Shown piece after piece: positions 4,880-51,000 of a stretch of 64,000 nt of DNA (positions are counted from its first letter, which is position 1; the number at the start of each line of letters is the position of its first letter). The notes under the pieces are model-generated. The model was not told where the DNA came from. It did no database searches and was given only the letters and a program-made list of their open reading frames with translations. Where the stretch lies: contig FMBT01000404.1 in NCBI GenBank assembly GCA_900095095.1, positions 62,001-126,000 on the forward strand, in the 5' to 3' direction. Position numbers and translations under genes: made by a program. The stretch comes from Fragilariopsis cylindrus CCMP1102. Taxonomy: Eukaryota; Bacillariophyta; Bacillariophyceae; Bacillariales; Bacillariaceae.

Positions 4880-5060
4880 CTAAACCACTTAATTTAGCCG
4901 AAGTTGTTATGTGACTAAGTATCGTGAATTATTTTTTCGTGATACTGGTTTTGTTGAACATGTAGTGGGTCTAGATCTATCTAAGGGTATGTATATCATA
5001 AAAATAGGTTGATTGCTGTCAATTAACTGTGGCTAACTTGGAATTGAACTGATGTGGCCT
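4880..5060 (+). repeat. Diverged direct repeat, copy A
   Basis: Shares an ordered series of blocks with 5287-5465: AATTTAGCC, GACTAAGTA/AACTAAGTA, TTTTGTTGAACATG, CTATCTAAGGGTATG, AATAGGTT and GGCTAACTT. I judge identity at roughly three quarters by eye. Both frames are broken by stops, so any coding origin is lost. Confidence 0.7.
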
Positions 5061-5286
5061 ATTACAGGTGGACTGTGTATTCCTGAATGTATTTATTCTG
5101 GAATTCACTAGGTGCTAATGATACTAAAGATCCTTCCTCTAGGAGAGAGGATGGTTGTGGATGAAGAATCACTTTCTGCTTCTGCACAGCAAAATTGAAT
5201 GGTTCAAAAAGAATGATTCTATTTAGCTTCTAGTGCGTGTGCATTGGAAAAAACGATTTCCTTCACAGCTTTAACACTTCTTGACT

Positions 5287-5465
5287 AAACTCAGTAGGGC
5301 ACCAAATTTAGCCAAAGTTGCTATTCAACTAAGTACCGTGAATCTATCTTTCTTGATACCAGTTTTGTTGAACATGCAGTAAGTCTATCTAAGGGTATGA
5401 AGACCATAAGAATAGGTTAATTGTTGTAAGTCATGGCTAACTTTGGACTGAATTGAAGTCTACGG
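5287..5465 (+). repeat. Diverged direct repeat, copy B
   Basis: Partner of the repeat at 4880-5060, same orientation, about 400 bases apart. A weaker similarity at about 5985-6025 may be a third relic. Confidence 0.7.
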
Positions 5466-6786
5466 TAATTAGTTACTACTGATAGTTAGCTTTTCTATAG
5501 TTGTGTATCATTTATTTGTATAGTTATTGATGTAACATTAAGGAAAACAATGTATTATTGGGGTAGGTGTCAGTGAATAGTATAAGCACTTATAGGTGCT
5601 TGTCAAAATCTGCGATCCATTGACAATGCTTGTTGTTTGTGTATGGTCGTTGAAAGACTGTTTACAAATGTTATTGCTGTTTTGCGGTGCAATGAATACG
5701 GCACTGGTGAATTTCAGAGAAAATGTCATCCTTTTTGAGTGGGAAAACAAGCTTGCTGACTTATTTTTAAGAATGGTGCTATTGATTGGTGCAACAATGC
5801 TATCAGCTCTCCAGAACACAGGATGGTTATTGATTGCGTCCATTGTAATTTCCTGTGTTAGTAGTTTACCATTGTTCTCATCTTGTCCTTCAATAAACGC
5901 CATTTTTCTGTTAAATCTGGTTTGAGATGGCTACTCAAATTGGATTATGGGGTATAAACTAATTAAATTTTTCAAAAAGTTCTTTTTGGTTCTGAAACCT
6001 TTGTTCCTGACTCGTTTTATTGAGGTGGTGAGAACTATTGGCATGCCATTGGTATGCCATTGGCATATGATGAGTTGTTCCATCTTGAGAACCCATTGTC
6101 AGTCATTTCCTAATTATTGTTCTCAGTTAGGTAGAGTTGGTTGTTTTTTAGTGTACTAGGGTGAATTATTGTTTGTTGGTACGTGTTTGTACATGGGATG
6201 GATAACAAGGTTAGAAAATGTAATTTCAGAATTTGTCTGTTTGTATGCAGTAGGTGTTGGGCTTAGGTGTGCATGTATCTGAAAATTTCAGATTCCGTTC
6301 TAGGTGCACGTTGTGCTTACTAACATCAATTTTGTTGAGATATTGGTCCTGGACTAGATTAGGAGTTGGGTAAGATACTATGTCATTACTTATGGGCTTT
6401 TCTACACTACTTAGTGAGTGATTATGGTAATTGTTAACCATAGAGTATTTAGGAAATACATTTTTGTGGTGTTCTAGGTTGGTACTTTTCAATGGTTGAC
6501 AGGCGCTTCAACTGTGTCTATCTACAACCTGAAGTTTGAACGCATTTTGCATTTACAATTATCCACAGGAACAATTCAACTAACTGTCTACGCTACTACG
6601 GTAAATCATTATTCATCTCATATAAGAAAAGCAGACTATTTATTATACACAGTACTGTAGTATATAATATATAACACTACTACTATTACATTTGTTTTTG
6701 ACTGGGCTATTTATTTATGATCTATTGTGTAGATCAATACATTTTCTGAGTTTTTAAGTAATATCAAATAAGGTAAGATAAAGTGT

Positions 6787-6860
6787 AACAACATACATTT
6801 AAAGATAATTCATCATCTAATTTAACAACATACATTTAAAGATAATTCATCATCTAATTT
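6787..6860 (+). repeat. Perfect 37-bp tandem duplication
   Basis: The unit beginning AACAACATACATTTAAAG and ending CATCTAATTT occurs twice with no gap (6787-6823 and 6824-6860). The lack of differences implies a recent slippage or repair event. Confidence 0.93.
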
Positions 6861-7057
6861 ATTGTATTGTTTACTAATATGCATATAGTATTAAATGTAT
6901 AAATATATATCATTATTATGTTTATCTTCTCATCCAAACGACATAAATTTTACATTACTTTTCATTCAAATATGTTTCTCACAAGTTTAACAGTCCTAGG
7001 TCTCTTCAAATATCTCATCAAAATGGTAATTTCCATTTCCTGGCCGTAAGACTTGCT

Positions 7058-7237
7058 GTGGGCGAGACAGTTGACATTGAGCTCGATGCACTACTTGGAT
7101 CAGAACTAGGAACAGCACTGGGTACAGAACTAGGTGCGCTACTAGGATCCGAAGTAGGGTTAGTAATTAGTAATTGGAACTAAGCTTAGTCCATGACCAG
7201 GAGATACGCTTGGTGATTCCGTGGGAGAGCTTGTGGG
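7058..7237 (-). pseudogene. Decayed 3' tail of the ice-binding mucin gene
   Basis: Directly beyond the TAA of the giant gene, the same frame continues as PTSSPTESPSVSPGHGLSLVP and then hits more stops. The DNA matches the coding stretch at about 8011-8145 almost base for base (the blocks encoding NPTSDPSSAPSS and PSAVPSSDPSSA). Relative to that copy, a short TAATTAG-type insertion near 7173 shifts the frame. An ancestral version of the protein probably carried further PSSxPS repeats after the ice-binding domain. The tail was lost by a nonsense change plus an indel, or the annotated stop is recent or allelic. Confidence 0.75.
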
Positions 7238-10200
7238 TTAATCAATTGGACCATCGGTTGGTTCGCCACTAGGAATGGAACTTGGTTCTAATGAAGGGAT
7301 AGAACTCGGCAAATATGGCTGAGTGATGGTCGCCGCGTCGAGGGTTACCGCCGTTTGCGCCAACATACGGCCGTTCAAAGACGAACCGGTCTTGAGATTA
7401 ACACCTGTCTTGGACAAGATGATGCCCTCCAAATGCGCACGTGCTTCAACATCAACCTCTAAGGCGGCTGACCAGAAGATGTTCTTTGCCAGTGCACCGC
7501 CAGTGAGAGTCACATTGATTTCCGTGGCTTGCACAATGTTCTTCGATGTCCTGATGATGAATATATCCGTTGCGCTGCCAAAGAATGTGAGATGAGTGGA
7601 AATGTCAATCTTTACGGTAAAAGTATAAACACCAGCTGTCAACGTTTGATTACCGATTTTGCCTCCTTTGAAATTGGTAGAAGTGGTGGGATAGTTGGTC
7701 TCGGACTGGGAGTCAGTGTACGCGGTTTCCATGTCACTGACGGCGGTGGTCAATTCAGCGGGAGTAGGAGCGTTGTAATTTGCCGCTTTGACGATTCCTA
7801 TGACCTGAGTACTAGTCGAAAACTTACTAGTTGAACTTTCCCTGACCAAGACAAAACCAGTAATGGCTGTCGAAGTGATGGGCGAGACGGCGATGTCGCC
7901 AGTAATCGAGGTGGGTCCAGTGGAGGTGATACCAGACTTTGAAAGGATGACGAAGTTACCGGCAGTTCCAAGATCGACACCCACTAAATTGTGACTCGGT
8001 TCAACTGAAGAGCTCGGCGCACTACTTGGATCAGAACTAGGAACAGCACTGGGTATAGAACTAGGTGCGCTACTAGGATCCGAAGTAGGGTTAATACTTG
8101 GAACTAAGCTTGGTCCATGACTAGGAGAAACGCTTGGTGATTCCGATGGAAAACCCGTTGGAAAACCAGAGGGAAATCCTGTGGGACCATCTGTAGGAAA
8201 ACTTGTGGGTATATTAGTTGGCAAAATAGAGGGACTACTGCTTGGTAAAGTAGACGGATTGCTTGAAGGTGAGCCGCTAGGACTCGCAGAAGGCCCACCG
8301 GAAGGTGTGCCACTTGGATGAGCACTAGGAAAAGAGCTAGGAGCACCACTTGGTGTAAGACTTGGAATGAAACTCGGCAAAGAACTTGGTGAAAGACTGG
8401 GTTGTATGCTTGGACTTGAACTCGGTTCTGAACTAGGGATGGAACTTGGTGCACCAGTCGGATCAGCACTTGGTTCAGAGCTAGGAACAGAGCTTGGTGA
8501 TTCACTGGGCAGCGAACTTGGAACAGTACTCGGAATGGAACTTGGTTCCAAACTTGGCAATAAACTTGGTAGGGAGCTAGGTGCGCCACTTGGATCAGCA
8601 CTAGGACCAGAGCTAGGATCAGCACTTGGTAGAAGACTAGGGTCAGCACTTGGAATGAAACTGGGTAATGTACTCGGTTCTGAACTAGGGATGAAACTTG
8701 GTGATTGACTGGGCATTGAACTTGGAACAGCACTCGGAATGGAACTTGGTTCCAAACTCGGCAATAAACTTGGTAGGGAGCTAGGTGCGCCACTTGGATC
8801 ACCACTAGGTGCACCAGTTGGATCACCACTTGGTGAAACACTTGGAATGAAACTCGGCAAAGAACTTGGTGAAACACTGGGTTGTATGCTTGGACTTGAA
8901 CTTGGTTCTGAACTAGGAATGGAACTTGGTGCACCAGTCGGATCAGCACTAGGGAAAGAGCTAGGTTCAGAACTGGGTAAAACACTTGGCTCAAGGCTTG
9001 GAATTGAACTTGGTTCCAAACTAGGCAACAAACTCGGGAGTGAGCTAGGTGCACCAGTCGGGTCAGCACTAGGACCAGAGCTAGGACTAGCTCTTGGTGA
9101 AAGACTAGGCTCAGCACTTGGAATGAAACTGGGTAATGAACTCGGTTCTGAACTAGGGATGAAACTAGGTGCACCAGTTGGATCAGCACTTGGTTCAGAG
9201 CTAGGAACAGAACTTGGTGATTGACTGGGCATTGAACTTGGAAAAGTACTCGGAATGGAACTTGGTTCCAAACTTGGCAAAAGACTAGGTTCAAGACTTG
9301 GAATGGAACTTGGTTCTGCACTAGGGATAGAACTCGGTGCACCAGTCGGTCGAGCACTAGGATCAGAGCTAGGAGCACCACTTGGAAATAGACTGGGTTG
9401 TATGCTTGGACTTGAACTTGGTTCTGAACTAGGGATGGAACTTGGTGAACCAGTCGGATCAGAACTAGGGAAAGAGCTTGGATCAGAACTAGGTGAAAGA
9501 CTCGGTTCAAGGCTTGGAAAGGAACTGGGCAAAGAACTCGGTTTTGAACTAGGGATGACACTCGGCACGCCAGTTGGATTAGCACTAGGATCAGAGCTAG
9601 GGCCGAAGCTTGATAAAACACTTGGCTCAAGGCTTGGAATTGAACTCGGTGCAAAACTCGGCAAAAAACTTGGGACAGAACTTGGTGCACCACTCGGATC
9701 AGCACTTGGTTCAGAGCTAGGATTAACACTAGGTAGATGACTGGGTAAAAGACTCGGCAAAAGACTCGGAATTGAAATCGGTGCCAAACTCGGCAAAAGA
9801 CTAGGTTCAAGACTTGGAATGGAACTTGGTTCTGCACTAGGGATAGAACTCGGTGCACCAGTCGGTCCAGCACTAGGATCAGAGCTAGGAGCACCACTCG
9901 GCAAAAGACTAGGTTCAAGACTTGGAATAGAACTTGGTTCTGCACTAGGGATAGAACTCGGTGCACCAGTCGGTCCAGCACTAGGATCAGAGCTAGGAGC
10001 ACCACTCGGCAAAAGACTAGGTTCGAGACTTGGAGTGGAACTTGGTTCTGAACTAGGGAGAGAACTTGGTGCACCAGTCGGATCAGCACTAGGATTAGAG
10101 CTAGGAGCACCACTTGGAAAAAGACTAGGTTCGAGACTTGGAGTGGAACTTGGTTCTGAACTAGGGATAGAACTGGGTGCACCAGTCGGTCCAGCACTAG

Positions 10201-13200
10201 GATCAGAGCTAGGAGCACCACTTGGAAAAAGACTAGGTATGAGACTTGGAATTGAACTGGGCTGAGAGCTTGGTTTAGAACTAGGAACAGTAGTTGGGTT
10301 GAAACTCGGCACGCCACTTGGATCATTACTAGGAGAAGAGCTAGGACCACCACTTGGTCCGACGCTCGGTTCAGAACTTGGAACGGAACTCGGTGTGCTA
10401 CTCGGATCAAAGCTAGGCTCGAGACTTGGAAGAGAGCTCGGCTTTCCGGTCGGAAAAGCACTTGGAATAAAGCTAGGCTCCGAACTTGGCAAGAAACTGG
10501 GTTCCAAACTCGGGAAAGAACTAGGCACTGCACTTGGACTTGAGCTAGGTTTAAGACTCGGAACAGAACTTGGCTGAGTACTTGGGGTTGGGCTAGGGAC
10601 CAAGCTTGGTTGCTTGCTAGGCATTACGCTTGGACTCAAGCTAGGAACTGCAGAGGGATTTGTTGATGGAAGATCAGATGGATTAGAAGAGGGTTCGTCT
10701 GATGCAAACACCGTTGGTCCTGTACTTGGCACTGTACTTGGACTTGAGCTAGGTTCAAGACTCGGAACCCCACTTGGTTTTTCCGATGGAGCGCTAGACG
10801 GGGCATCTGATGCAAAGACACTTGGTTTTCCACTAGGCGATGCACTTGGTTCTAAACTTGGTTCTAAACTTGGTAACAGACTTGAAATTGTACTAGGAAT
10901 ACCAGATTCTGCAGAGGTTGGATTGTTTGATGCAAAGATAGATGGTCCCTCGCTAGACGCGACTGTAGGCGAATCTGTGGGTTCAATACTTGGAACAAAA
11001 CTTGGCTGAGTACTTGGGGTCTCGCTAGGAACAAAACTTGGTTGCTTGCTAGGCATTACGCTTGGACTCAAGCTAGGAACTGCAGAGGGATTCGTTGATG
11101 GAAGATCAGATGGATCAGAAGAGGGTTCGTCTGATGCAAAGATAGATGGTCCCCCGCTAGACGCGACTGTAGGCGAATCTGTGGGTTCAATACTTGGAAC
11201 AAAACTTGGCTGAGTACTTGGGGTCTCGCTAGGAACAAAACTTGGTTGCTTGCTAGGCATTACGCTTGGACTCAAGCTAGGAACTGCAGAGGGATTCGTT
11301 GATGGAAGATCAGATGGATCAGAAGAGGGTTCCTCTGATGCAATCACGGTTGGTTCCGTACTTGGCACTGCACTTGGACTTGAGCTAGGTTTAAGACTGG
11401 GAACAGAACTTGGCTGAGTACTTGGGGTCTCGCTAGGAACAAAACTTGGTTGCCTGCTAGGCATTACGCTTGGACTCAAGCTAGGAACTGCAGAGGGATT
11501 TGTTGATGGAAGATCAGATGGACTGGTAGATGGCCCATCCGATGTACTCACGGTTGGTCCTGTACTTGGCACTACACTTGGACTTGAGCTGGGTTCAAGA
11601 CTCGGAACCCCACTTGGTTTTTCCGATGGAGCGCTAGATGGGGCATCTGATGCCAAGACACTTGGTTTTCCACTAGGCGATGCACTCGGTTCTAAACTTG
11701 GTAACAGACTTGGAGTTGTACTGGGAGTATCAGATTCTGCAGAGGTTGGATTGTCTGATGCAAAGATAGATGGTTCCCCGCTAGACGCGACTGTAGGCGA
11801 GACTGTTGGAACAATAGTTGGCAAGGATGTTGGTGTATTTGTTGGTACCGGTGTTGGTGCTGATGTCGGAGCAGATGTAGGAGCGGCCGTTGGGATTACC
11901 GTCGGCGGTAAAGTTGGAGGCAGAGTTGGAGCGACCGTTGGTGCTGCTGTAGGAGCCAATGTGGGTGTATTCGTTGGTGTTGCTGTTGGTGCTGCTGTTG
12001 GTGCTGCTGTTGGTGCTGCTGTTGGCACTGCTGTAGGAGCCGCTGTAGGAGCGGCCGTTGGTGGTAAACTTGGTGTTAAAGTTGGAAGTAGAGTTGGCAC
12101 ATTGGTTGGCGCCCGTGTGGGTAGAGTGCTCGGAACAATCGACGGATCTACGCTTGGTTTAAGACTAGGTAAAATGCTCGGAACGATTGATGGATCTACA
12201 CTTGGTTCAAGACTAGGTATAGTGCTTGGCATACTTGATGGGACTTCACTTGGTTGAAGACTGGGTGTAGTGCTTGGTATACTTGACGGATTTTCACTTG
12301 GAACTTTACTAGGTGATAAACTTGGGTCAATACTTGGTAATGAGCTCGAAACGATACTAGGAGAGCTACTTGGTTTCCCACTGGGACTTGAGCTAGGTTC
12401 CGATGATAAGAGTTCTTTATTCCAATATAATTCAAAATTCTCAGTTATGCCCTTCCCTCTAAGTGCATCCCTGATTTGTGTTTCAACATCGGTGCTATTG
12501 ATCATTTCAATTGAAGGTGTGGGTGAACTACTAGGTAATTCACTAGGTGCTCCAGATTGTACATAGCTTGGTGGTAATGATGGGGATGGAGAGGGTGTAA
12601 AACCTTGCAACATCCTTGATACAAGATCGGGTGTATCAACTCCTAACAACCGCTCTTCAATTGGCACAGTTCCAAACAAGGGTTCTTCTGGACATGGGCC
12701 TTTGCATGCCACCGTTGAGTTCCAGTAAATGTCCAAATTTGTATCATTTATGGATGCAAGTTGGTATTCACATTTTTCCATTCGTCTCTGAAATGTCTCA
12801 AAACAGGGATCTGAAACACTATTATAAATTTCCATAATTTTCTCCCCAAAATCTTCTAGATCAATGTCTCCACTAAGATCGTTTTCTGCTGATTGATTAC
12901 TAGCAAAACTAAAACTAAATCTTATTCCTGCCATTGCCTCCACACGGTCTTCAGCTGGACAATAACCAGGAGCGAATGCTGGAGCAGGTGTTAAAATTTT
13001 CGATTGTGCCATCTGAGCGGCCGTGATCGCTCCAGTACTTGCGGCAACAGCGACCGCTGCAGTGGTGATAACCTGTAATTTACACCAAGAGTTTGTGAAG
13101 AGAGAGAGAGATAGGGAAAAATAATGTTCAGGAGTTGTATAAGACAATAGCAAAGCATAGCAATATATACACAACACAGACATGCATCAAAAAGTGAAAT

Positions 13201-16200
13201 TTTGACAGTAGCAAAATAGACACAAAAGTAGATTCCATAGTGTAGTAGTAATATATACACAAATACGTTAACTTACCGCTGTCACCGTTGTAGAGGCTGT
13301 TGCAGCTCCAGCAGCAGAAGCAACCCTGATTGATTAAATAAAAGAATATACACATTAACAAAAGTTTTGGATTGTACAATAAGAAAAATGAGGACCAGAA
13401 ATAGTGTTAGCCGTATGTGAAGCTATAATAATGTAGGAAAAGGGTTGTAGATAATTTTTAAAATAAACATGCAGGTAGATCGATAGATAGACAGAAATAC
13501 GTAAGCAACGGATACTTACACGGCTGCTCCTGCTATTGCTGCGCTAGCATTACCAGCTGTACTGGCAGCGGAAACGCTGATTCAAATAAAAGAAAAATAC
13601 GTAAATATTTAAATAGATCACAAAAATTAAATATTATGATTTTGTATATGTGTGAGGGTAAAGAAGGGAATAAGAAATTATTTACAACCTCATTGTCGCA
13701 TAATGTGATTTTTGATATTTTATTGTGTAACTTACGCCATGGTTTGCATTACAGCCGTTCTAAAGGTAAACGAATGGTAGAAAAATCGTGATGAAACAAT
13801 AGAAATAGCAGTTTGTATGTGAGCGTTATGTACGTAAACGTTGTTGTTGAGTAAAATACAATAAAATAAGCACTGCTTGCGCCACCATCACGACAATGAA
13901 TACGAATACAAATACGATGGCATGGTATTCAGTCAAATGCATCTATACACTTGTTACTTACTGTGCTGCTGCTGCTGACGATGATGCCGCACCTGGTTTG
14001 TAAAGCAAAAATTAATTAGTAAGAAACGCAAGCAGATATATAAACAAACAAAATACAAATAATAAGCAAACACATACAAACACATACACATAGCACACGT
14101 GTGAAGTAACTTACCAGCACTCGACCCGGCTGTACCGGATGCAGCTGACGAGGTTGTTGCTGAAGATGTTGTTGCTGATGCACTCGTCGATGATGCATGC
14201 AATATAGAAGAGGAACTTTGAATTGCACCACTAGAAGCATTTGCTGCTACTTCTGCGGCAATTTCAGCTACATGGGCAGCATTCTCTGCCGATGCTTGTA
14301 TAATTGTACTCGCACCACCATCACCACCACTCGTTCCTCCTTGTGCAAATGCACCAATGTTTAAGTCGTCATCATTTGATTTGCTAAATGCAGAAAATAA
14401 TTTTTGCACTCCACCAACCGCACCAACCATTGCCATTCCACCCAATGTGTACATCATACCTCGAATCACTTTCTTTTCAGGATTTTCTTCGTCTTCCTTT
14501 TCTTCATCAGAAGTATACATATCATCATTGTCGTAATCGTCATCATCGTACAGTGTACGAAGATTATTATCATAACAATCATTACTGTCATTATAATGAT
14601 CAAAACTGCCACTACCACCACCACCACCACCACCACCACCATTGTCATTGTTTCCATCGTATTGTGTATTGAATATATCTAACAAACGTATTGAATTTTC
14701 TGGACGTAATGCTGGGACTGCATGTAGACTATTATTACTGGTGTTGTTGTTGTTCGTTGTTGCTATTGCTATTGTTGCTGTTGCTGCTGTCGGTGCCAAA
14801 TTTGGAAATAAATCCTGTTCAATCAATTCAGGATTACCATCAGCAACATCCGATGCAAAACGAATAGTATATTTCCTTTCTACTTCATTGTTGTTATTAT
14901 TGTTGTTGTTTTCAATGTCGTAGTCATCGTTATTTCCATTGCCATTGTCATCACTATTTCTATCCTTATTGTTAACAGGAACAGGAACAGCAGCATCATT
15001 ATGATGTATCCCCTCTTCGTATTCATCTTGAAGTGTATCCATAAATGATTCATCATCAAATATATCAAAACTAATTTTATCAAATTTAGCACTAGAAGAC
15101 ATAAATGCTGCTGTCTTCTTATCAATAGCATCATCATCATCACCAGCAGTAGCATCGTAATAATCATCATCATCATCATCATCATCATTGTCGTTATTAG
15201 CATCAAAAGATGACATCGTTGTCCTTTGCCGTTGTTGATACAATTGATGTTGTTTCGCATGAGCCTTGTACAAATCCTTTTCCGATATTCCTACTGTTAT
15301 ACTACCACTATCTCCTCCCTGTGAAAAATCTTCAATAGCAAAACTACCATCATCGTTGATATTGTTAGGAATTATGTGGGCTGCTGCTGCTGATGGTGAT
15401 GCTGATGATACTATTGAACTATTAAACATTAAATCACGTAATGACATAATTTGATTACTACTCTGCCTTCTATTTCTTTTATTACTTCGTTGTTGATTTA
15501 AATTTTTATTGGAATGTCCTAACGGTACTAATAATGATTTAGAGGAATGTTGCTGTTGATGTTGTCCTTCTAAAGATGATAATAGTAATGATCTGGATGA
15601 ATCTGGAGGTAGTAATGATTCTAATGACTTGGATGAATTTGGAGGGAATAATGAATAGGACTTTGATATTGAAAAATTATCATCATCATCATCATTATTG
15701 TCTTTGTTATCATTATCATTCTTGTTATCATTCTTGTTATTGTTATTATGGAAAGAAGCATTAAATGAATTCCTTTTTCCACTAGTACTAGACTTAGTAC
15801 TTTCACTGAGACTACCGAGACTACTACTTTTAATATCTCGTCTACTACCACGTTGTCTGGTTCTTTTTGATGAGGATGGTGTACTATTAGTACCACCAGG
15901 ATTACCAGTTCCCATTGGTAATCCAATGCAACTTTCTTCTTCAAAGGATCGTACTGATAAACCACTATTAATACTGTCATGATTCGACATATAATCGTTA
16001 TTACTATTATTCAAATCGTTACCAAGGTTGTCAATGCGTGATTGGTAGTTTAACAGTTGAGAAATGAATGTTCCATCATTATCATCATCATCATCATCAT
16101 CATCATCGACTATTGCTACTATGGGTTGAGTAGTTGCTGTTGCTGTTGCTGTTGCTGTAGTTGAAGCAAATTCATCATCATCATCATCTACTGATATACT

Positions 16201-17105
16201 ATTCCTTCGTAATCGTTTATTTTCCCCTCGTAATCGTTTATGATTTCTTTTTGAGCTAATACTACTACTACTACTACTACTACGTTCTTGTTGTTCTTGT
16301 TGCTGTTGTTGTTGCTTCTGCTGATTATGAGGATGTTGTTGTCTTCTAATAATCCCACCACTTTTCGAAATAAGTAATGTACTACCAACACCGCTACCGC
16401 TGCCGCTATCACTACTCATACCTCGTCGCTTATTAGTAGGTGTTGTGGATGTAGATGTTGATGCAGCTGCAGTAGTAAATGAAGAAAAAGAAGAACCCTG
16501 CTGTTGCTGCTGCGTAGCCATCAGAAGTTTCATCACATCCACTTTATTTTGCTTTTTAGTATTACCATCAATCTGATTGAGACTCATTCCCATTGGTACT
16601 TCGTAACTGAAGTAAAGGAAGGAAGGAAGGAATGAAGGCAAAGGATTTAAAAGATCCGATTTTGAGATGAGATTAGAATTTTTTAGTTCATAGTTATTCC
16701 GATTCTATTTGCAAAAACTTACCTCCGAATGTTTCTACTACTAATACTACTAGGACTACTACCACTACTAGGACTACTACTACTACTATTCGTATTCATA
16801 CTCCTACCACTACTACTTCTACTTCTGAAACTACCGGTAATACTTCTACTACTTCTATTCCTCCTTGAAGCAGCCATCCTGGCTTTTCTTTGACATCTGC
16901 TACTTAGACTTCTTTGACTTTGACTTTCTAATATATCGCCTTCGATATCTTCACCATCATTATCATCAGCATTATCATCATCATCATCATTATTATTGTC
17001 GTCTTCAATGATATAAATACTTTTATTGCTTTCTTCCTTCAAATTATTATTATCATCATAATCATCCGTTGCTTTAGTTGCTGTTCGTGATGCTAAATTA
17101 TCCAT
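7238..17105 (-). CDS. Giant membrane-anchored PSSxPS mucin with C-terminal DUF3494 ice-binding domain
   Basis: Seven exons join in frame: 17105-16723, 16606-14115, 13992-13962, 13759-13736, 13576-13520, 13325-13277 and 13072-7238 (8871 nt, 2956 residues). Donors are GTAAGT; acceptors are CAG or TAG. Order of parts: disordered acidic/Ser/Asn/Gln region (1-840); one hydrophobic helix at 841-865 (VIRGMMYTLGGMAMVGAVGG); an Ala-rich segment over the micro-exons; a conserved-looking block at about 1013-1190 with five Cys (GYCPAEDRVEAMAG, SDPCFETFQRRMEKCEY, VACKGPCPEE); PSSxPS/PTxAPT repeats to about 2705; then DUF3494 at 2709-2931 (VGVDLGTAGNFVILSKSGI, TGDIAVSPI, NGRMLAQTAVTLDAATITQP). DUF3494 proteins bind ice and are widely held to have reached diatoms by horizontal transfer. 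No N-terminal signal peptide is visible, so a type II anchor is inferred: inside N-terminus, external repeat stalk, ice-binding tip. Upstream, TACAGTA/TACTGTA motifs lie at about 17183 and 17394. Confidence 0.78.
7990..12420 (-). repeat. PSSxPS / PTxAPT coding repeat array
   Basis: About 4.4 kb encoding Pro-Ser hexads, with a Thr-rich subdomain (PTAAPTAAPT type) at about 11,800-12,130. Higher-order DNA repeats are visible. A unit near 111 bp (37 residues, GAPSSDPSAGPTGAPSSIPS type) occurs about four times from 9,846 to 10,260. A unit near 190-200 bp (DPSDLPSTNPSAVPSLSPSV type) occurs at about 10,975-11,165 and 11,173-11,360, with a further diverged copy beyond. These indicate growth by unequal exchange of whole modules rather than by single hexads. 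Confidence 0.9.
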
Positions 17106-19045
17106 GGTGTAGCTTATTATCTCGTTTGTTTGTGTTTGTTCAGAGTAGATCTATCTATATCTATCTATTTCTCTTCCCTCTGTTACAGTACACTGTGATC
17201 TGTCTGAGTCTCTGTCTCGATCACTCTCACTCTCAACTCTCGCTGTGTGTGTGTGTGAGAGAATTCTTGAAGCGCTGTATATGCGGTTAGTCGTGTTGTT
17301 TCGTTTTTTTTTCTTCATTCGCTTACTTGCAGGTACTCGCGTCTTGTAACATCGTATTGTATCAATAATGACTTTTGATATAAATTTACTTAGTACTGTA
17401 GAGCGATGAGGTATGCAATATTATTTATTATGGAACTACTGCTGTACTAAAAAGAAAAAGAGAACCGAGGAAAAACACGTAAAGCGCTATTATCATATTA
17501 TGGTTTAAAAGTTAACGTCGACGGATAATGAGTCGACTTGACTCTCCTGGTACTGGAAGCGCGAGAGATTTGGGAGGTACGGTGGTTCGCCATATTAATT
17601 CCATATTAATTGAAATATATATACAAATACGGTATTTATCCCCCTGACAGACATCTCACACACATTTTCACGACTAGAATATTTTTGGAAGCCTTTCGGA
17701 CAAATTTTATTAGACATTATTGTTTATAAATAATAATGGTATTTATGGGTTTGTGCCCTTCATTTATTGCCTGGCGTAATTTGGAATACGCTACCAAAGA
17801 AAAGACGATAATGACGATGTGACTGGGATTCACTATCTGCTGCACAAAGCTACTGTACGGCACTAAAATTAATTCATTCTTCTAGTTGTAGAAACAACAA
17901 CAAAATTATACGCATTCTTGATGCTAGCTATGTGAGTAAACCAATTGTGTTTGTCATCATGAAGAGTGTGCATATTTTATTGATAACAGTTTTGTAATAT
18001 AAGCAAGTTCTACTAGTTATTGATCCAAGGTAGAAGATGTCACATCATCTCAAGCCATAGGGTAGGTAGGAGGGAATAGTATGTTTTCAGCCCTGGCCTA
18101 GCCTGATGATGGTATGGTTTTCAACATTTTGACTACAAGTAAAAGTAATGCACAACATGATGTTTGTTCACACTATTGAAAGGATATTATCAGACACCAT
18201 ACCAATTTTCAGATGAAATTGCGGAAGTTGTACCTTTTTATGAAGCATCAACCCATTAAAATTACACTATTATTTGTACTTTTCATTGTGACCTTCTTTT
18301 GAAAACAACCCAATCAAGTCCCTGTTATAGTATGTGATGGATATTACCCAAATCTTGTTCACCTATCTAGCCTGGGGGGCAACTCAATTGTGAAGATTGG
18401 TGGTATACACTCCTCAGTGCCGTACTCTGGCACCAGTGCTAGTGCAGCTGATAATAACTTGTTAATTCATCTTCCATTATACTCATAAATTGAATGACTT
18501 CCAATATTGAAGCCATGTTTGGGGTCTTACGTGCCTTCTAGTATTAAGTTAAAATAAGTCCCAATGGCTAGGTTCCTTTGTATGGCGTACAGCAAATGAG
18601 CAAGCTGCCGTGATTTACAAAAAATTCATTGGCAATGGTGCTCCTTCTGGAATGATTTTGTCTGCTACTATTCAGTCCTTGATGATGTCAACAGTACCAT
18701 CAATCTAGTCTTTGTCTGAACAAAAGTGGTACTGTACTAAAAAATGATACATGATTTGTGCACTGTAGCGATAGCATCATCAGTGTCATTGGCCACAAAT
18801 GTATCGAATCGAATGAATCGAATGAATCAGTCGTGAAGAATATCAAATTGCTACGGGAGTTAAAGTTTTGGTGTAACAGTGACTGCGCAGTGACAACCCA
18901 AAGAAAAAGATACTATTTTTTAAATTTCTGCTACAATATTTGAATATTCCTAACGAAAAATATATGCAGAAAATACAAGCGACAACAAATAACATTATAA
19001 ACTTTAACAAAAGCTAGCAGCAAAATAATACTAATATTTTTCACA
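17106..19045. other. 1.9 kb intergenic region
   Basis: No gene supported. The proximal 300 bases are the likely promoter of the giant minus-strand gene (pyrimidine-rich, with a short GT run at about 17245 and TACAGTA/TACTGTA motifs at 17183 and 17394). The rest is stop-rich AT DNA with no recognisable element. I found no remnant of the missing N-terminal half of PPDK here. Confidence 0.6.
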
Positions 19046-20067
19046 ATGAGTGGCACTACAGCAGATGCAAGGAAAGGACGTAAAAATGGTGCTAATGGTA
19101 TTGGATTGTGTCGCTCAGAGCAGATGTCTTTTAAGCCAGCAAGAATTTTGAAGCTTCGGCAATTTATTCTTGGTAGTGACAAACAAGCAGAAGAAGCTCT
19201 ACATGATCTTCTTCAGTTCCAACGAAAAGATTACGAAGGTATCTATAAGGAAATGGGTGGTCTTCCAGTTACTGTGAGATTATTAGACCCTCCTCTTCAC
19301 AAATTTTTACCTTCATTGAACGAAGAAGTGGTCCTTATTGGACTAGCGAAACAACTTGGATTCACTATCCACGAACTAAAAGAAAAAGTCCGTACGATGC
19401 AGGAGGTCAATTCGATGATAGGTCTGCGTGGTTGTAGACTTGGAGTAACTCGACCATTACTTGTTGAAATGCAAGTTAGAGCAATCCTTGAGGCGGCATT
19501 AAATTCCCTCGATGATGATATTGATGCAATGCCAGATATTATGGTCCCATTAGTTGGTACTTTCGAAGAATTCCATCATCAACGTAAACTGATCGAATCT
19601 GTTGCAAACAAAGTTTTTAAGGAACACAATAGAAGAACATGTTCCTTCAAAATCGGGACGATGATCGAAGTTCCACGTCCTGCATTAATTACAGATGAGA
19701 TTGCTGCTGCTAAGGATGGTGGTACCGAATTCTTTTCATTCGGTTCGAATTATCTAAATCAAAAGACAGCTAGATTATATTCTCGAGATGATGCTAGTAG
19801 AAGTTTTGTACCTGATTATTTGAAGAAAGGTATTCTACAAGATGATCCATTCGTTACAGGCGACACTAAAGGTGTTGGACAACTAATTAAAATGGCAGTT
19901 GATCGTAGTCATTCCGTTCAACCAGAACACTACACGGTGGTGATCCACGATCTGTTCACTTCTTCGCAAATGAAGCTGATTAATCATTATTAGTTGTTCG
20001 CCATTCCGTGTCCCTATCCGCAAGATTAGCAGCAGCGCATGCTTCTGTTGAAAACACACAAGAATGA
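19046..20067 (+). pseudogene. 5'-truncated, frameshifted pyruvate phosphate dikinase (PPDK) copy
   Basis: The open part (19046-19993, 315 residues) matches only the C-terminal PEP-binding barrel: NGANGIGLCRSEQM, VRLLDPPLHKFLP, GLRGCRLG, GTMIEVPRPALITDEIA, FFSFGSNYLNQ, GILQDDPF and GVGQLIK. The nucleotide- and phosphohistidine-domain halves are absent. Near 19,920 the expected catalytic-Cys motif VCGEHGG reads VQPEHY, so the Cys is gone and a small insertion shifts the frame. Homology continues out of frame past the stop: GGDPRSVHFFANEAD at about 19,935-19,980, then SCSPFRVPI, then after one extra base ARLAAAHA to a stop at 20,067. Several lesions plus a missing half mark a dead copy. The lack of introns and 5' truncation would fit a retrocopy, but no clear poly(A) tract was seen. 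Confidence 0.83.
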
Positions 20068-30075: not shown

Positions 30076-33000
30076 GAAGAAAAAAGCAAACATTGTTAAT
30101 AACAAACACATATTATTATTCTTAAAGCAAAAACGACAACGACAACGACAACAAGATCCAACTCAGGAAGATAAAAGTAGGAAACATACCTGAACCGCCT
30201 TGCGACCTTCGTGAGCACCTGAATGAGGAAGAGCTGTCAGCGACAAACGATGACGAATGGGAGCCTCCGCATCAAATTTAAACCGAAATCCATTAGCTTG
30301 GAATATATCCATATGATCTAAGACGCAAGCTTCTTCGGATGGATTCAACTCAAGATGTAATGGTTGGATCAATGGTTGCTCGTGCATTACCGTTTTCTTA
30401 CAAAGTTCTTCAAAGTTGTATCGTTCCTCACAAGCGTGTTGATCTAATATCCAAAGATGATTTCGGGAACATCTAGCAAGAACAAAACCAAGATTGAATT
30501 GACCTATGACCTGCATTCCATCTCGAAATGTTGATTTGGATATTCGAATGAATGGATTCGAAGAATTCCGATCATTATCATCGTCATGTTCATCGTCAAA
30601 TCCAACTTCCTTGTCAAGTTCATTCATCGTTCTGGAGGGACTTTCCTCTGTACGTGACGGTGAATCCTCCACGATGGAAGTATTGCCATCTTTGGATTTA
30701 ATAATGAGATTTCTTCTAATTTCGTCGATGTCATGTTTACGTTTGCGCATATTCAAACGCTCCAAACGAGCATTATAGCACACATCCTGTGTGGAACTAA
30801 AGGATTCCCATACTACGACTTCATCGTCAGCGGTAGAACAATCGTCACTCGCATTTGAAATTTCCGAATTACTGGTGCTTTTAGTTTTGCCTTTTAAAGG
30901 GAGTGATTCGATATCATCCTTTCCATTATCCGTAATCGTACGGGATTCGCGAATCTTCTGACGAGCACGCGTATTAGATTGTTGAGAGGTATTAGTGGTA
31001 GAGGATGATATTTTGCTCGAATCTTCATCGTTTTTATTATATTTCGGTCGTGTTTGGTTTGAAGTAGGAATAGGTGGTGATTCTTTCGATGTTAAGCTAT
31101 TGATTCCTCGGCTTCCCATTGCAACATCGCCGTCAGAGTCTTTTCTATTGTTGTCGGATTGGAAGGCAAATTGCTGTAAATTACCCAATAGCGGACGACG
31201 ACGTGCAGAAGAAGAATACGACGATGACAATGTTACCGATGATGACGCAGCGAAAGAGGAAGAGGAAACCACTCTCGATGATTGTTCGTTTGATTTCTCG
31301 ATTGTTTGTTTTCCATTTCCTTCATTATTATTATCATCCTCAGGTCGTGTTTCTTTTCTATAGGATGGAGAGGATGACGATAGAGTCTGCTGTGATCCGG
31401 CTTGAAGATCTGTTGTAGTAGTAACGGATGGAGATTTCATTGTAAAATCATCTGGTGTTACTGGTTCTTTCGTTCTCGTATTCTCCGACGACGATCCGAC
31501 CCCGATAGAAATAGAACGTGAGATCATTGTTTGTAACGATTCCTGCTCTAGTTGCAATCCTCCGTCGTCATCGTCGCCACTATAAAATTTGGCCTGGATT
31601 TCATTCCATTTCCGTCGTTCTAAATCTGATATTGTATCCATCGGTGGTAGCTGTTGTTGTTGTTGTTGTTGTTGTTGTGTTGCGTCATTATCATTAATCG
31701 TCAACGCTATATTATTTTCATTTTCTAACACATCTGATTTGTTGTTGTTCGAGAATACTGTCGTAGAAGCTTCCTTCTCCTCAAATTGCTGCGTATCGGT
31801 AGATGACGACGTTATAGGCCCCTCTATTTCTTCTTCTTTCGGCAACACTTTTGCTTTCTTTTTAGGACGATTTTCTTCCGTTGATTCGTCTCCGTTGTTC
31901 GATGATAGGCGAATCTTTGCACCCGTTGTAGTCTCTGCCACTGTCATAGTTGACAGTTTTAATACAACAGTAGATAGCTTAGTCTGTTTCAGTGGACGAC
32001 GGTCTTCAATTTGATCGTCATCGTTGTTGTTGTTGAGCTCATTAGTTTCTTGTTGTCGTTCCTTTTGTCGTCCAGCTAGATCATGTTGCATCTTCGCTTT
32101 AGATAAATCATGGACGAATGCAAATCTTCGTTTGTGCTTCTGTCGGTTACCATTATCATCGACTTCACCATCGCCATCGTCGTCGTCGTCATCGTCATCG
32201 CTGTCCTGATAATCGTCCTCTTCGACCTCTATGTCAGTAACACCATTCCCATTAAACATCTGAGACAAGGGACAGGTAATATCATGACCATGCTTATATG
32301 AAGGACCTCTTGCACATCTTCTACAACTAGTATTAGCGCCAGTACTTTTACCGCCTACGCTTACTCTTGCTGCTGTTATTCGTTGTTGTTGTTGTTGTTG
32401 CTGTTGCTGTGATGACGGTGATTGTTGTTGTTGTTGTTGTTGCTGCTGCTGATTATGCTGCTGCTTATTCGGATTGTTTTGTTGTTGTTGCGTGGATGAT
32501 AAACTTGTTGTTCCTCCATCCACGAATATACCAGAGGATTCGTTCGACCATAGTTTTGTGACATGTTCTTCGATCATCCCCAAGAGATCGGATTCATTTG
32601 TCAATAATACTGTACGTTTATCTGGTGATAAATTAATATCAAATGAATTATTTGGTAAGGTAAATTCTAATATAGCAGATGGTTTTTTTTGTTTAGTATT
32701 ATTAGCAGTAGAATTTGAAAATGTGGTCCATAATTTACGTAATAATGTTGTGACCTTTGGTAAATCAACCACACGACCATTAATACTGTAATACTGTACA
32801 GATCGGACACGGTCACCAGCACCACTACCACTACCACCAGCAGCTGTTGACGTTATTCTCCCTCGTTTTTGACGTTGATGTTTCTGTGCAGCTGCTGCTG
32901 CCGCTATAAGTGATGGTTCAATAGAGATCAATCCCCTGATCCCCCAATTGTAACAAACATCGTCGTTTTTTTTGTCGTCATCCACTTCTTTTTTCTGTTG

Positions 33001-34429
33001 CTGTTGATGTTGTTGATTTGTATCATTATTATAATTCTTCTTATTCTTATTTATAGTTCTAAAATAGGATTCTAATGACAGTTCGAAGGATGATATACCA
33101 CGAACGAATGCTGATCCTAATAAAGTAGAGGATGTTTCTTGAATTGATATGGATGTGGAGGAGGTAGCTAAGGCAATTTCTTCACGATTTTGATTGATAT
33201 CCATTAAACGGAAACAGACACCCACATTAAAGATACCATAACTTTCTACTAATTTAAATATTTTGGTACGTTCTTGACGTATTCGACGTGTGATATCCGC
33301 TCGACGGGCTGGTAAATTTCCAAATGGTTTGACAACAGCCACTGTGGTACCAACCTTCCGTGCTAATAATGTATATTTTTGTGGTTGTTGTTGTGGTTCT
33401 GGTTGTTGTACTGATTTATTATTATTATTATTGTTGTCTCCTTCTTGATCGTTAGGTGGCAATTCACTACTACTACTACTACTATTTTTATTTTTATGAT
33501 TATCAAATATTAATTTTGTCGCTAAGTCATCGTCTTCGGTTCGTGAGGCCACCACGATGGAATCACTGACACAGGACATGGCAAATAAGGCTTCACCACG
33601 AAATCCCATAGTTAATCCTGTACCCGTATAGATATCCTGAATACACTCAATTTTCGAGGTGGCATGACGTGTCGCCATATACGGACGTGAATCAATTGGT
33701 ACACCATTCCCATCATCGGAGACTTCAATTATATCTAATCCTTGTCCAAACAAACGGACTTGTTTATAATTTAATTTTTTAAAGTTTTAATTTTTAAATT
33801 TTAATTTTGAATTTTAATGGATTGATTGGAATGATTGGAATGATTGGAATGAATGATATGAAATGAGAGAAGAAAATTAAAACAAACGAGTAGTGCACAA
33901 AAGTATTGTTTTATGAGATGATGATAATGATATATTTACAATAATATAAATAAGAATGGCCGCCCGAACCATTTTAATCCAAACCAAACCAAATCAAATC
34001 AAATAATGAAATCAATCAATAAATAATATTGTATTTGAATTCGATTTCAATTTCAATTTCAATACAATTCAATTTCAATTCAATGCTGACATATGTTGTT
34101 AAAACATGAGTTAAATTAAGAACATAAAACTTCATAAAACAAGAAAACTTACTTTTAATAGTGGTACTTTCCGCATCTAAGGAATTATCAATTAATTCTT
34201 TGACTATACTAGCTAAATCAGATATAGCTTGTTCAGCTGTTATTCGTCGTACTGTAGCATCATCCAAACGTTTGATATCCGATGTTTCTGGTATTACTAC
34301 TATTGATTGTTGTTCTTGTTCTTGTTCTTGTTCTTGTTGGGGAGGTGGTTGTTGAGAATGTTCTTTTTCTTTTCCTTCTTCTTTTTCTTCTAGCTGTTGC
34401 TGTTGCTGTTGCTCCGGTAGACTATTCAT
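29584..34429 (-). CDS. PMS2: DNA mismatch repair endonuclease PMS2 (MutL homologue)
   Basis: Three exons, 34429-34153, 33758-30190 and 30030-29584, total 1430 residues in one frame. Exon 1 ends in the first ATPase motif (ASIVKELIDNSLDAESTTIK). Exon 2 continues it (EVSDDGNGVP, TRHATSKI, GFRGEALFAM), then a very long linker of Gln, Asn, Asp and Ser runs, then the C-terminal domain with the endonuclease motif DQHACEERYNFEEL (DQHAx2Ex4E). Exon 3 supplies SRACRTSVMIG and CAHGRPTMRH, the remaining metal-site motifs. PMS2 pairs with MLH1 to nick the daughter strand in nuclear mismatch repair. All motifs are intact, so it should be nuclease-competent; the linker makes it much longer than the usual 850-900. 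The extreme C-terminus adds a short unrelated tail. Confidence 0.92.
30037..30073 (+). repeat. (TG)n in PMS2 intron 2
   Basis: About 18 TG units on the plus strand, that is (CA)n on the gene's sense strand, directly before the exon 3 acceptor. Confidence 0.95.
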
Positions 34430-49981: not shown

Positions 49982-51000
49982 GTATCCATCAATCGCAATA
50001 ATCTTTCCCCTTTACATGTATAAATTTCCAAAAAGAAGAACAATCATACTGTTCTAACGATAGCTTTCTTCTACCCCTATCTCCCACGTATGGTATTCTC
50101 TCCGTGTTATTGATCTATTTTTCTATCTCTACTAGTACACCATTGGCAATCCTTGGTACATTCGCACTTTGGTTTGGTTGGTATGGATTTAATCCTGGAT
50201 CGACCTTCAGTGCGTCGACGGCAGTTGCCGGTGAAGTTGCTGCCTTGGTGGCTGTTAATACTACATTAGCAGCAGCTGCAGGTGCTATTAGTGCTATGTT
50301 CACAAGTACATACTTCAACTATCGTATTGAGGGTGTACATACATATGATGTTGCATACACAATGAACGGATTATTAACTGGATTGGTTGCAATCACGGCA
50401 CCATGTGCATCTGTTGATAGTTGGGCTGCTGTTGTGATTGGAATTGTTGCTGGTTGGGCATATCTTGCTGGATCGAAATTATTAGTGAAACTTCGTATCG
50501 ACGATGCTGTTGATGCAATCCCGGTACATTTGGTGGGTGGTATGTGGGGTCTTATTGCAGCTGGTTTATTCAGTACACCAGAATTATTGGAAAAAGCATA
50601 CGGCCAATCGGAACATGTTGGATGGTTTTATGAATGGGGTCGTGGTTCTGGGAACTTCACTTTGATTGGTACACAATTGATTGGTATCCTATTTATTTTT
50701 GGATGGACTACAGCAATTATGTATCCATTCTTTTGGCTCTTAAACGTTTTTGGATCACTCCGTGTTGATCCAATGGAGGAACATGCCGGTATGGATATTA
50801 GTCGTCATAACGGATCAGGCTATATTATTGAAAAACAAGATAAGTTATTAGATGCTAGTACCTCACTTCATCAGAGAAGATCAATTGCACTTGCTTTGAA
50901 AACGACCGAGAAAGCTGCTACTGAACCTGATGCTGTTGCTGCTGTGGATAATGGTGGTTCTAAGGAACCCAAAACAGAAACTGCCGAAGTAGAGGCCTAA
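48874..51000 (+). CDS. AMT1: Ammonium transporter, AMT1 type
   Basis: Three exons, 48874-48978, 49291-49937 and 50136-51000, join in frame to 538 residues, normal for AMT1. Recognisable elements: LIYAGALVFFMQLGFAMLCAGSIRAKN, AGTIAERTQMKGY, the first pore-His motif DFAGSGPVHMLGGVTAL, LGTFALWFGWYGFNPGST, and the second pore-His region DAVDAIPVHLVGGMWG. The cytosolic C-terminus EEHAGMDISRHNGSGYI holds the conserved trimer-gating segment with its phosphorylatable Thr replaced by Ser in DISRH. It imports ammonium across the plasma membrane. Intron 1 ends in a long (AC)n tract before the acceptor; intron 2 holds a (TA) run. In diatoms such genes are typically nitrogen-responsive (inference). Confidence 0.93.

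Follow-up and report, generated by a model that had tools for sequence, protein, structure and literature searches.

Gene structure and splicing

One long gene on the minus strand occupies positions 7238..17105 of the window, by which we mean the whole 64-kb stretch of Fragilariopsis cylindrus DNA that was analysed. Its predicted joined coding sequence of 8871 nt (2956 aa) consists of seven exons (383, 2492, 31, 24, 57, 49 and 5835 nt from 5′ to 3′) and has its sole stop at the last codon. The features are as follows.

16723..17105, minus: exon 1, start codon and acidic, Ser-rich disordered N-terminus; GTAAGT donor; 401 nt in the allele
14115..16606, minus: exon 2, D/N/S/Q-rich disordered region, Gly-rich helix and beginning of the Ala-rich segment (joined CDS, allele dN/dS, paralogue alignment)
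14395..14475, minus: Gly-rich helix KKVIRGMMYTLGGMAMVGAVGGVQKLF, residues 839-865, weak membrane candidate, strongly conserved in the paralogue
13962..13992, minus: micro-exon 3, 31 nt (joined CDS, allele, paralogue)
13736..13759, minus: micro-exon 4, 24 nt, likewise 24 nt in allele and paralogue
13520..13576, minus: micro-exon 5, 57 nt (joined CDS, allele, paralogue)
13277..13325, minus: micro-exon 6, 49 nt (joined CDS, allele, paralogue)
7238..13072, minus: exon 7, end of the Ala-rich segment, Cys block, repeat stalk, DUF3494, short PSS tail and stop
13001..13072, minus: last part of the uncharged Ala-rich stretch (residues 932-1036)
12569..12967, minus: Cys block, residues 1048-1180; residues 1046-1180 contain 5 Cys and 3 N-glycosylation sequons
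8009..12406, minus: PSSxPS/PTxxPT repeat stalk, about 1465 residues (1235-2700), PF04886 PT repeat
8010..8149, minus: repeat-coding copy directly before DUF3494, duplicated beyond the stop
7310..7990, minus: DUF3494 (PF11999) ice-binding domain; Pfam match 7322-7948
7079..7224, minus: second copy of the repeat DNA, beyond the stop codon (7238-7240)

A sequence-only reading of this DNA had proposed a single gene whose seven exons, four of them micro-exons, join in frame over 8871 nt. Both parts of that proposal held: the coding sequence is open, and all six introns start with GTAAGT and end with AG. In the second allele (C631), micro-exons 3-6 are identical at 31/31, 24/24, 57/57 and 49/49 bases. 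Their counterparts in a paralogue measure 52, 24, 60 and 70 nt with the same phases and with length differences that are multiples of three, and the paralogue, spliced likewise, forms a single open frame up to its last codon. Because the micro-exons are identical in the allele and have four counterparts in the paralogue, they are beyond chance, and their preservation in both a divergent allele and a paralogue strengthens the single-gene model. On the plus strand, frames of the LGxELGxxLG type occur (at most 279 aa long between 6000 and 18500); they arise as the complement of the repeat and were rejected as genes. Rfam and tRNA scans of the 64-kb window gave no matches.

DUF3494 tip, Cys block and stalk

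The C-terminal domain was confirmed as DUF3494 by profile search. In the genome search, the window domain matched PF11999 over its full length (profile 1-208) with 193.8 bits, compared to a curated cut-off of 28.7 bits, and it scored 188 bits (E 2.2e-55) inside the whole exon-7 protein. For NCBIfam IBP_CFB (NF045625), it reached 190.2 bits against a cut-off of 400 set for the whole protein, so by this score it is a relative and not a member of that equivalog. The best solved relatives of the tip are 6A8K (1.2e-60) and 4nu3 (7e-59). In a tree built from 37 of 80 bacterial loci (43 were omitted for size) and 14 F. cylindrus rows including the 6A8K chain (the genome profile search gave 53 match rows), the window domain fell within a 10-row F. 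cylindrus clade with support 100/100; the remaining 4 F. cylindrus rows formed a separate group. On the basis of this clade, a recent direct horizontal transfer of the window domain from bacteria was rejected.

The long PSSxPS stalk suggested earlier was also found. It matches PF04886 'PT disordered repeat' in a Pfam scan of the whole exon-7 protein (E 9.2e-88), 330 of 358 proline-to-proline steps in residues 1181-2700 are exactly 4 residues, and its estimated contour length is about 470-550 nm; as a Ser/Thr/Pro-rich tandem repeat, it is a mucin-like stalk. No Ig/beta-sandwich extender, RTX repeat or vWD domain was found in the exon 2 and exon 7 products (Pfam, E 0.01). The Cys block is 57% identical to that of the paralogue across an aligned 194-residue stretch. 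Among viral contigs, 88 pattern matches to the Cys block yielded 0 confirmed relatives.

Inner region and membrane candidates

Short motifs in the exon 2 product (SINSGLSxRS, LRDLMF, RFAxDxxDGxPELIExDL and LDIFN) are common to the window gene and the paralogue. Pfam and NCBIfam gave no match over the cut-off for this product (SART-1 scored 17.2 bits where 31.5 are required) and thus no kinase or other signalling domain. No signal peptide was apparent by eye at the N-terminus.

The claim of one membrane helix was not borne out as stated, since there are two weak candidates. The Gly-rich helix has a KD maximum of 1.24 (residues 841-859), and the most hydrophobic segment, VTAVITTAAVAVAASTGAI (residues 1010-1028, of which 1010-1012 come from exon 6), reaches 1.81. 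For comparison, maxima of 2.38 and 2.95 were obtained for membrane segments in two relatives from this genome. Approximate summed Hessa-scale values were +5.2 and +2.0 for the candidates versus -4.2 and -1.7 for the two relatives. In composition-matched shuffles of residues 941-1036, a KD of 1.81 was reached in 231 of 2000. The paralogue keeps a segment matching VTAVITTAAVAVAASTGAI (KD 1.93). With no apparent signal peptide, and with two candidate helices whose hydrophobicity falls well below that of the two membrane-type relatives, the membrane step is the weak link of a surface-anchor reading; judged from its sequence, a membrane-tethered state of the protein is plausible.

Paralogue and proposed domain capture

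The paralogue is 54-63% identical to the window gene, with which it shares the inner region, the Cys block and the repeat stalk. Its tip is different: it is Cys-rich, has no DUF3494, and shows only a resemblance to Somatomedin-B (PF01033; 16.4 bits, cut-off 23.1, E 0.012). The inner block and the Cys block co-occur on the same 4 contigs of the genome (4/4 matches each). Repeat DNA is directly duplicated on either side of the DUF3494 domain (147 columns, 89.8%, E 1.2e-49), and the copy after the stop is also present in the C631 allele translation. Since the tip differs between the paralogues and the duplication flanks DUF3494, we suggest a domain capture, and the duplication looks as if it were the scar of that capture into a mucin. 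In window positions 5001-7240, tblastn found no remnant of a second DUF3494 or of the paralogue tip, the latter giving only two matches of 10 and 13 residues (E 1.2).

A second giant mucin-DUF3494 gene lies on the same contig and strand (C425:43149-30602), 26 kb from the window gene. Like the window gene, it has a Cys-rich part, a PSS stalk and a C-terminal DUF3494, but its anchor and Cys part are of another kind and its DUF3494 is 54% identical to the window domain. Its membrane helix is strong (KD 2.95), and the assembly shows a single frame break near 34.1 kb. Tree testing gave no evidence for independent capture of DUF3494 by the two giant mucins, as a grouping of the window domain, its allele and the domain at C425:30.6 kb was not rejected (p-AU 0.485). 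Two shorter DUF3494 proteins have clear membrane helices, one on C456 (by hydropathy) and one on C297 (by eye, from the translation). With a second such giant in the genome, tethered ice binding looks like a theme of this diatom and not a freak.

Proposed role of the protein

The window gene is best read as encoding a putative surface ice adhesin. We tentatively favor, at somewhat short of even confidence, a single gene encoding a cell-surface mucin-like ice adhesin with a weak membrane anchor, whose DUF3494 was captured into a mucin. The open frame, the splice structure, the PxS stalk and the DUF3494 tip are established by the sequence; the remaining steps go beyond it. A weak signal-anchor, rich in Ala or Gly and located between residues 840 and 1036, would insert the protein into the plasma membrane and leave the D/N/S-rich N-terminus inside the cell. 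The Cys block and the stalk, presumably O-glycosylated, would cross the silica wall, and the DUF3494 tip would bind ice and so fasten the cell itself or its wall to the ice surface. The capture would have put DUF3494 onto a mucin of which a version lacking this domain and bearing another tip still exists. If this is right, a eukaryote arrived at a giant surface ice adhesin through the addition of DUF3494 to a pre-existing mucin, and the question of how sea-ice diatoms hold to ice could be tested on a single gene, with the paralogue and its other tip as a natural control.

The weakness of the membrane helices also suits a protein of the mucilage or wall coat that is secreted, possibly in a shorter form, and whose DUF3494 makes mucilage stick to ice or shape it; we regard this as unlikely, yet the most serious of the alternatives. 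In both alleles, translation from an ATG at 13183 in intron 6 would begin with the hydrophobic sequence MSVLCIYCYALLLSY and continue in frame into exon 7. In addition, secreted IBPs are credited with helping brine channels to stay liquid (PMC8991070), and sea-ice diatoms are described as producing polysaccharide-rich extracellular polymer (PMC5932028). However, a stop directly before exon 7 closes the same intron frame in the paralogue, and the long form is favored by an exon 2 conserved between alleles and by micro-exons kept in both allele and paralogue.

Rather improbable is a membrane shield or ice sensor, in which the tethered DUF3494 would block ice or signal contact via the inner region instead of holding the cell. 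Such roles have been proposed for transmembrane F. cylindrus IBPs in a review (PMC8991070), and the paralogue retains the short motifs of the inner region. Nevertheless, a stalk of about 1465 residues seems long for membrane shielding, and the exon 2 product carries no signalling domain over the cut-off.

Comparison of the alleles bears on whether the gene is decaying. Exon 2 has a dN/dS of 0.31 over 817 codons, and the 194-codon stretch holding the Cys block has 1 change. In DUF3494, there are 18 nonsynonymous and 4 synonymous changes versus 57 and 47 in exon 2 (Fisher p 0.03), with no difference from the neutral expectation (p 0.62). Compared to the paralogue, dN/dS is 0.28 for the helix block, and 0.63 for the Cys block and 0.64 for an N-terminal stretch, which indicate mild constraint only. 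We give little credence to a non-functional gene, that is, a mucin struck by the domain insertion and now drifting. It would account for a 1-nt frame break within the stalk of the C631 allele, the repeat remnants beyond the stop and the 18:4 ratio of allele changes in DUF3494, but the break could be an assembly error in the repeat, all 2956 codons of the window gene (the C425 allele) form an open frame, and exon 2 and the Cys-block stretch are conserved.

It is a long shot that the protein serves a gliding or attachment complex as its ice-specific foot. In such a complex the inner region would connect to raphe actomyosin, the stalk would pass through the raphe slit, which measures 300-500 nm in Craspedostauros, and DUF3494 would grip ice, with the paralogue serving another surface. 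If true, this would provide a concrete candidate for the missing cytoskeleton-membrane-substrate link in diatoms and account for diatom gliding on ice. Finally, a false join of two genes, one for a disordered N-terminal protein and the other for a mucin-IBP, can hardly be credited: linking both halves does require four very small exons, but the blocks, their order, the micro-exons and the phases are the same in allele and paralogue.

Comparison with known systems

The earlier statement that diatom IBPs are usually small and secreted is half right, as several F. cylindrus IBPs have transmembrane domains according to a review (PMC8991070), and the C456 and C297 proteins and the second giant add to these. 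That a membrane-bound algal IBP may anchor a cell to ice has also been suggested in print (PMC6892780). Thus, membrane-bound F. cylindrus IBPs and ice anchoring are already published as proposals; our literature searches turned up no description of an architecture with an inner region, a giant mucin stalk and a DUF3494 tip.

The closest solved F. cylindrus protein, fcIBP11 (6A8K), belongs to the same DUF3494 family and clade (100/100) and is 56% identical to the window domain. Its chain is encoded in the same genome at 100% identity as a small protein (333-aa open frame), whereas the 2956-aa mucin-like protein of the window has an inner region of its own and bears the domain at its tip. CaTrailin4 and CaFAP1, from the adhesive-trail and mucin-like proteins of a raphid diatom, are likewise very large or mucin-like surface proteins (PMC11420354); ice binding is not part of their description in that account, and the exon 2 and exon 7 products of the window gene gave no vWD match.

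The idea of a eukaryotic counterpart of bacterial ice adhesins is fair as an analogy of layout and does not extend to homology. The 1.5-MDa adhesin of Marinomonas primoryensis (MpIBP/MpAFP) has been demonstrated to attach the bacterium to ice, and its cell-surface anchor, very long repetitive extender and ice-binding domain near the far end (PMC5014055) resemble the layout proposed for the window protein. It differs in its ice-binding domain, which is reported as non-DUF3494 (PMC6892780), and in its RTX units, other kind of repetitive extender and bacterial secretion; we claim no homology. The Shewanella frigidimarina type also carries DUF3494 on a tether, but its tethers are described as Ig-like (PMC9957290). 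Among the best 80 of 488 bacterial and archaeal DUF3494 loci, the longest frame is 828 aa, none exceeds 1000 aa, and 0 have at least 10 PxS-type units. If the surface ice adhesin reading is right, domain shuffling in a diatom would have arrived at the layout that bacteria reached via RTX or Ig extenders.

Gene structure, allele and paralogue

The sequence-only reading described a single giant gene, and its seven exons do join in frame, giving a coding sequence of 8871 nt (2956 aa) whose sole stop is the last codon. All six introns start with GTAAGT and finish with AG, and the exon-7 frame by itself runs for 1982 codons from stop to stop. When the exon-2 inner block and the exon-7 Cys block were searched separately, each gave exactly four matches in the genome at E ≤ 0.001, on the same contigs: C425, whose bases 62001–126000 make up the window, C631, C441 and C683. 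At the sequence level, the inner block and the exon-7 mucin part are thus predicted to be one gene, not two.

Outside repeats, contig C631 aligns with the window's first 22 kb in blocks of at least 200 bases at approximately 82–96% identity, with a few short unaligned gaps, and micro-exons 3–6 and their splice sites are equal base for base. We read C631 as carrying the other allele of the window gene; the F. cylindrus genome is reported to keep divergent alleles apart (PMC7764121), as in this genome. Contigs C441 and C683 look like the allele pair of a paralogue, with 61% identity to the window gene in the inner block and 57% in the Cys block. The micro-exons of the paralogue measure 52, 24, 60 and 70 nt compared to 31, 24, 57 and 49 nt in the window, and each of the differences (21, 0, 3 and 21) is divisible by three. 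Splicing the C441 copy, with exon 2 taken from the open-frame start, no start codon modelled and the C683 copy left out, yields 2378 aa with a single terminal stop. Since the five introns compared are themselves 71–82% identical between paralogue and window (shuffled sequence, 62–65%; exons, 77–90%), exon identity alone is insufficient to prove the micro-exons, which are proven instead by their kept lengths, phases and splice sites. The allele and paralogue comparison gives the gene model stronger support than the window alone, as evidence from sequence rather than transcripts.

Other frames in the window resemble known proteins, by eye from translation:
19001–19993, plus strand, frame resembling pyruvate phosphate dikinase
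30163–33786, minus strand, frame resembling a MutL-type protein
50002–51000, plus strand, frame resembling an ammonium transporter

Origin of the ice-binding tip

The proposed ice-binding domain (DUF3494, PF11999) was borne out: the C-terminal domain matches the profile at full length with 193.8 bits in the genome search (cut-off 28.7), and with E 2.2e-55 when the entire exon-7 product is scanned. For the stalk, Pfam gives PF04886, "PT disordered repeat" (E 9.2e-88). The search for PF11999 covered 67.9 Mb in 818 contigs and returned 53 rows, some being pieces of one gene. For the chain of PDB 6A8K, the genome gives a match of 100% across 233 residues; the chain's entry name is "Ice binding protein 1", and we take it to be fcIBP11 of F. 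cylindrus.

The paralogue has no DUF3494, with no PF11999 row on C441 or C683. Its protein terminates in a tip rich in Cys, CFCDxxCxxxxDCCADIC, at the C-terminal ends of loci L021 (C683) and L024 (C441), 84% identical between the alleles. The tip resembles somatomedin-B, at 16.4 bits against the Pfam profile, below the cut-off of 23.1, and its only two matches in the genome are the paralogue's own alleles. In the window gene, directly duplicated repeat DNA lies on both sides of DUF3494 (8149–8010 and 7224–7079; 147 columns, 89.8% identity). The second copy sits past the stop codon, and the C631 allele translates alike after its stop. The stalks of the window gene and paralogue can be aligned up to this duplication region (49% over 187 columns of low-complexity sequence). 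Most simply, a mucin that already existed would have captured DUF3494, whose stop then cut off the old end; a remnant of the paralogue-type tip was looked for at the window gene and none was found.

A 51-row tree places the window domain, paired with its allele, in a clade of 10 F. cylindrus rows (support 100/100); the position of this pair as sister of the other eight rows is weak (87/55), and four further F. cylindrus rows group apart. This nesting indicates that the domain most likely derived from the diatom's own stock of ice-binding proteins (IBPs). The tip of a second giant gene falls in the same clade, and a single capture event for both giants is possible (joint grouping, p-AU 0.485).

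Other DUF3494 designs in the genome

The second giant (C425:43149–30602, minus strand; loci L026 and L027) lies outside the window, approximately 26 kb on, on the contig and strand of the window gene. It has a strong membrane helix near the N-terminus, several Cys-rich units, possibly ShK-like, long near-identical PSS repeats and DUF3494 at the C-terminal end. Its assembled frame has a single break (3016 + 1177 codons), and the C631 stretches matching it contain stops in the N-terminal part. The first 690 residues gave 104 match rows in the genome, mostly to the Cys-rich part; in a Pfam scan of these 690 aa no family exceeded its cut-off (PBP1_TM, 19.1 bits, under 27.8).

Besides the window and its allele, DUF3494 frames were read at 17 further places, out of the 53 rows, as a sample rather than a census:
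L008 (C456), 524-aa frame, short DUF3494 protein whose first third holds a clear membrane helix
L125 (C297:25600–27600), 521-aa frame, short DUF3494 protein whose first third likewise holds a clear membrane helix
L034 (C513), L035 (C640) and L042 (C202), DUF3494 with PS-rich linkers and WNTSQVTNMASMF-form units (DUF285)

The products of L008 and L125 are likely membrane-type IBPs. In L034, nine DUF285 stretches are joined to DUF3494 through a PS-rich linker, the DUF3494 frame of L042 is broken, and a long PSS stretch precedes DUF3494 on C19. Locus L041 (C674:243.4–245.4 kb) holds three tandem DUF3494 domains in a single 760-aa frame. The copies at L036 (C445:4458–12512), on C590 and at C307:566 kb are fragmented or carry internal stop codons, and are probably decayed copies or intron-bearing genes.

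Probable membrane tether

No signal peptide is apparent by eye in the acidic N-terminus of the window protein. In place of the one membrane helix first described, two candidate segments were found, both with hydropathy (KD) below that of controls from the same genome (second giant, 2.95; short membrane-type IBP on C456, 2.38). The first, a Gly-rich helix, KKVIRGMMYTLGGMAMVGAVGGVQKLF, scores only 1.24 but shows strong conservation in the paralogue. The second, residues 1010–1028, lies in a 105-residue stretch without charged residues or His and scores 1.81 (1.93 in the paralogue), above the classical membrane line of 1.6. Shuffles of residues 941–1036 attain 1.81 in 231 of 2000 cases, and therefore its hydrophobicity reflects composition rather than a sharp helix. 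If the second segment is the anchor, the Cys block would follow directly, outside the cell, which would suit the presence of five Cys and three N-glycosylation sequons in residues 1046–1180. On balance, a membrane tether is favoured for the window protein; a secreted mucilage protein stays in contention. An ATG inside intron 6 (13183, minus strand) begins a hydrophobic stretch that reads in frame into exon 7; both alleles retain it, and in the paralogue a stop closes the frame.

Proposed function

Of the readings considered, a surface ice adhesin puts every part to use. The stalk is approximately 1465 residues long, with a contour length of 471–547 nm (computed for the 1520 residues 1181–2700 at 0.31–0.36 nm), and the ice-binding domain carried on it could reach approximately half a micrometre. 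A tethered DUF3494 acting as a shield or sensor stays a rival.

Against the adhesin reading count a frame break and the allele changes in DUF3494. The C631 stalk has a one-base frame break, the sole one among six internal gaps with a length that is not a multiple of three; with a 12-nt repeat unit, however, gaps in multiples of three come cheaply. DUF3494 shows 18 nonsynonymous and 4 synonymous changes between alleles (dN/dS 1.53) compared to a dN/dS of 0.31 in exon 2 (p 0.03 for the contrast), and by itself cannot be told apart from neutral (p 0.62). Relaxed constraint and selection for change each fit this pattern. Also against the adhesin reading are the dN/dS values to the paralogue of the Cys block (0.63) and of an N-terminal stretch of 79 codons (0.64); the helix block has 0.28.

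Fragilariopsis is a raphid diatom. No mucin-like or giant diatom DUF3494 protein was found in the searched literature; the F. cylindrus genome paper, which lay outside that search, may list this gene as a model. A review attributes transmembrane domains to several F. cylindrus IBPs (PMC8991070). Gliding on ice has been reported for ice-dwelling diatoms (PMC13104615, citing Zhang et al. 2025). In another raphid diatom the raphe slit is given as 300–500 nm thick, and the same source calls the linkage of cytoskeleton, membrane and substrate an open question for diatoms (PMC11420354). In 2016 the Marinomonas adhesin was called the sole adhesin known to bind ice (PMC5014055), and a chrysophyte paper proposes that a membrane-bound IBP could anchor the cell to ice (PMC6892780).
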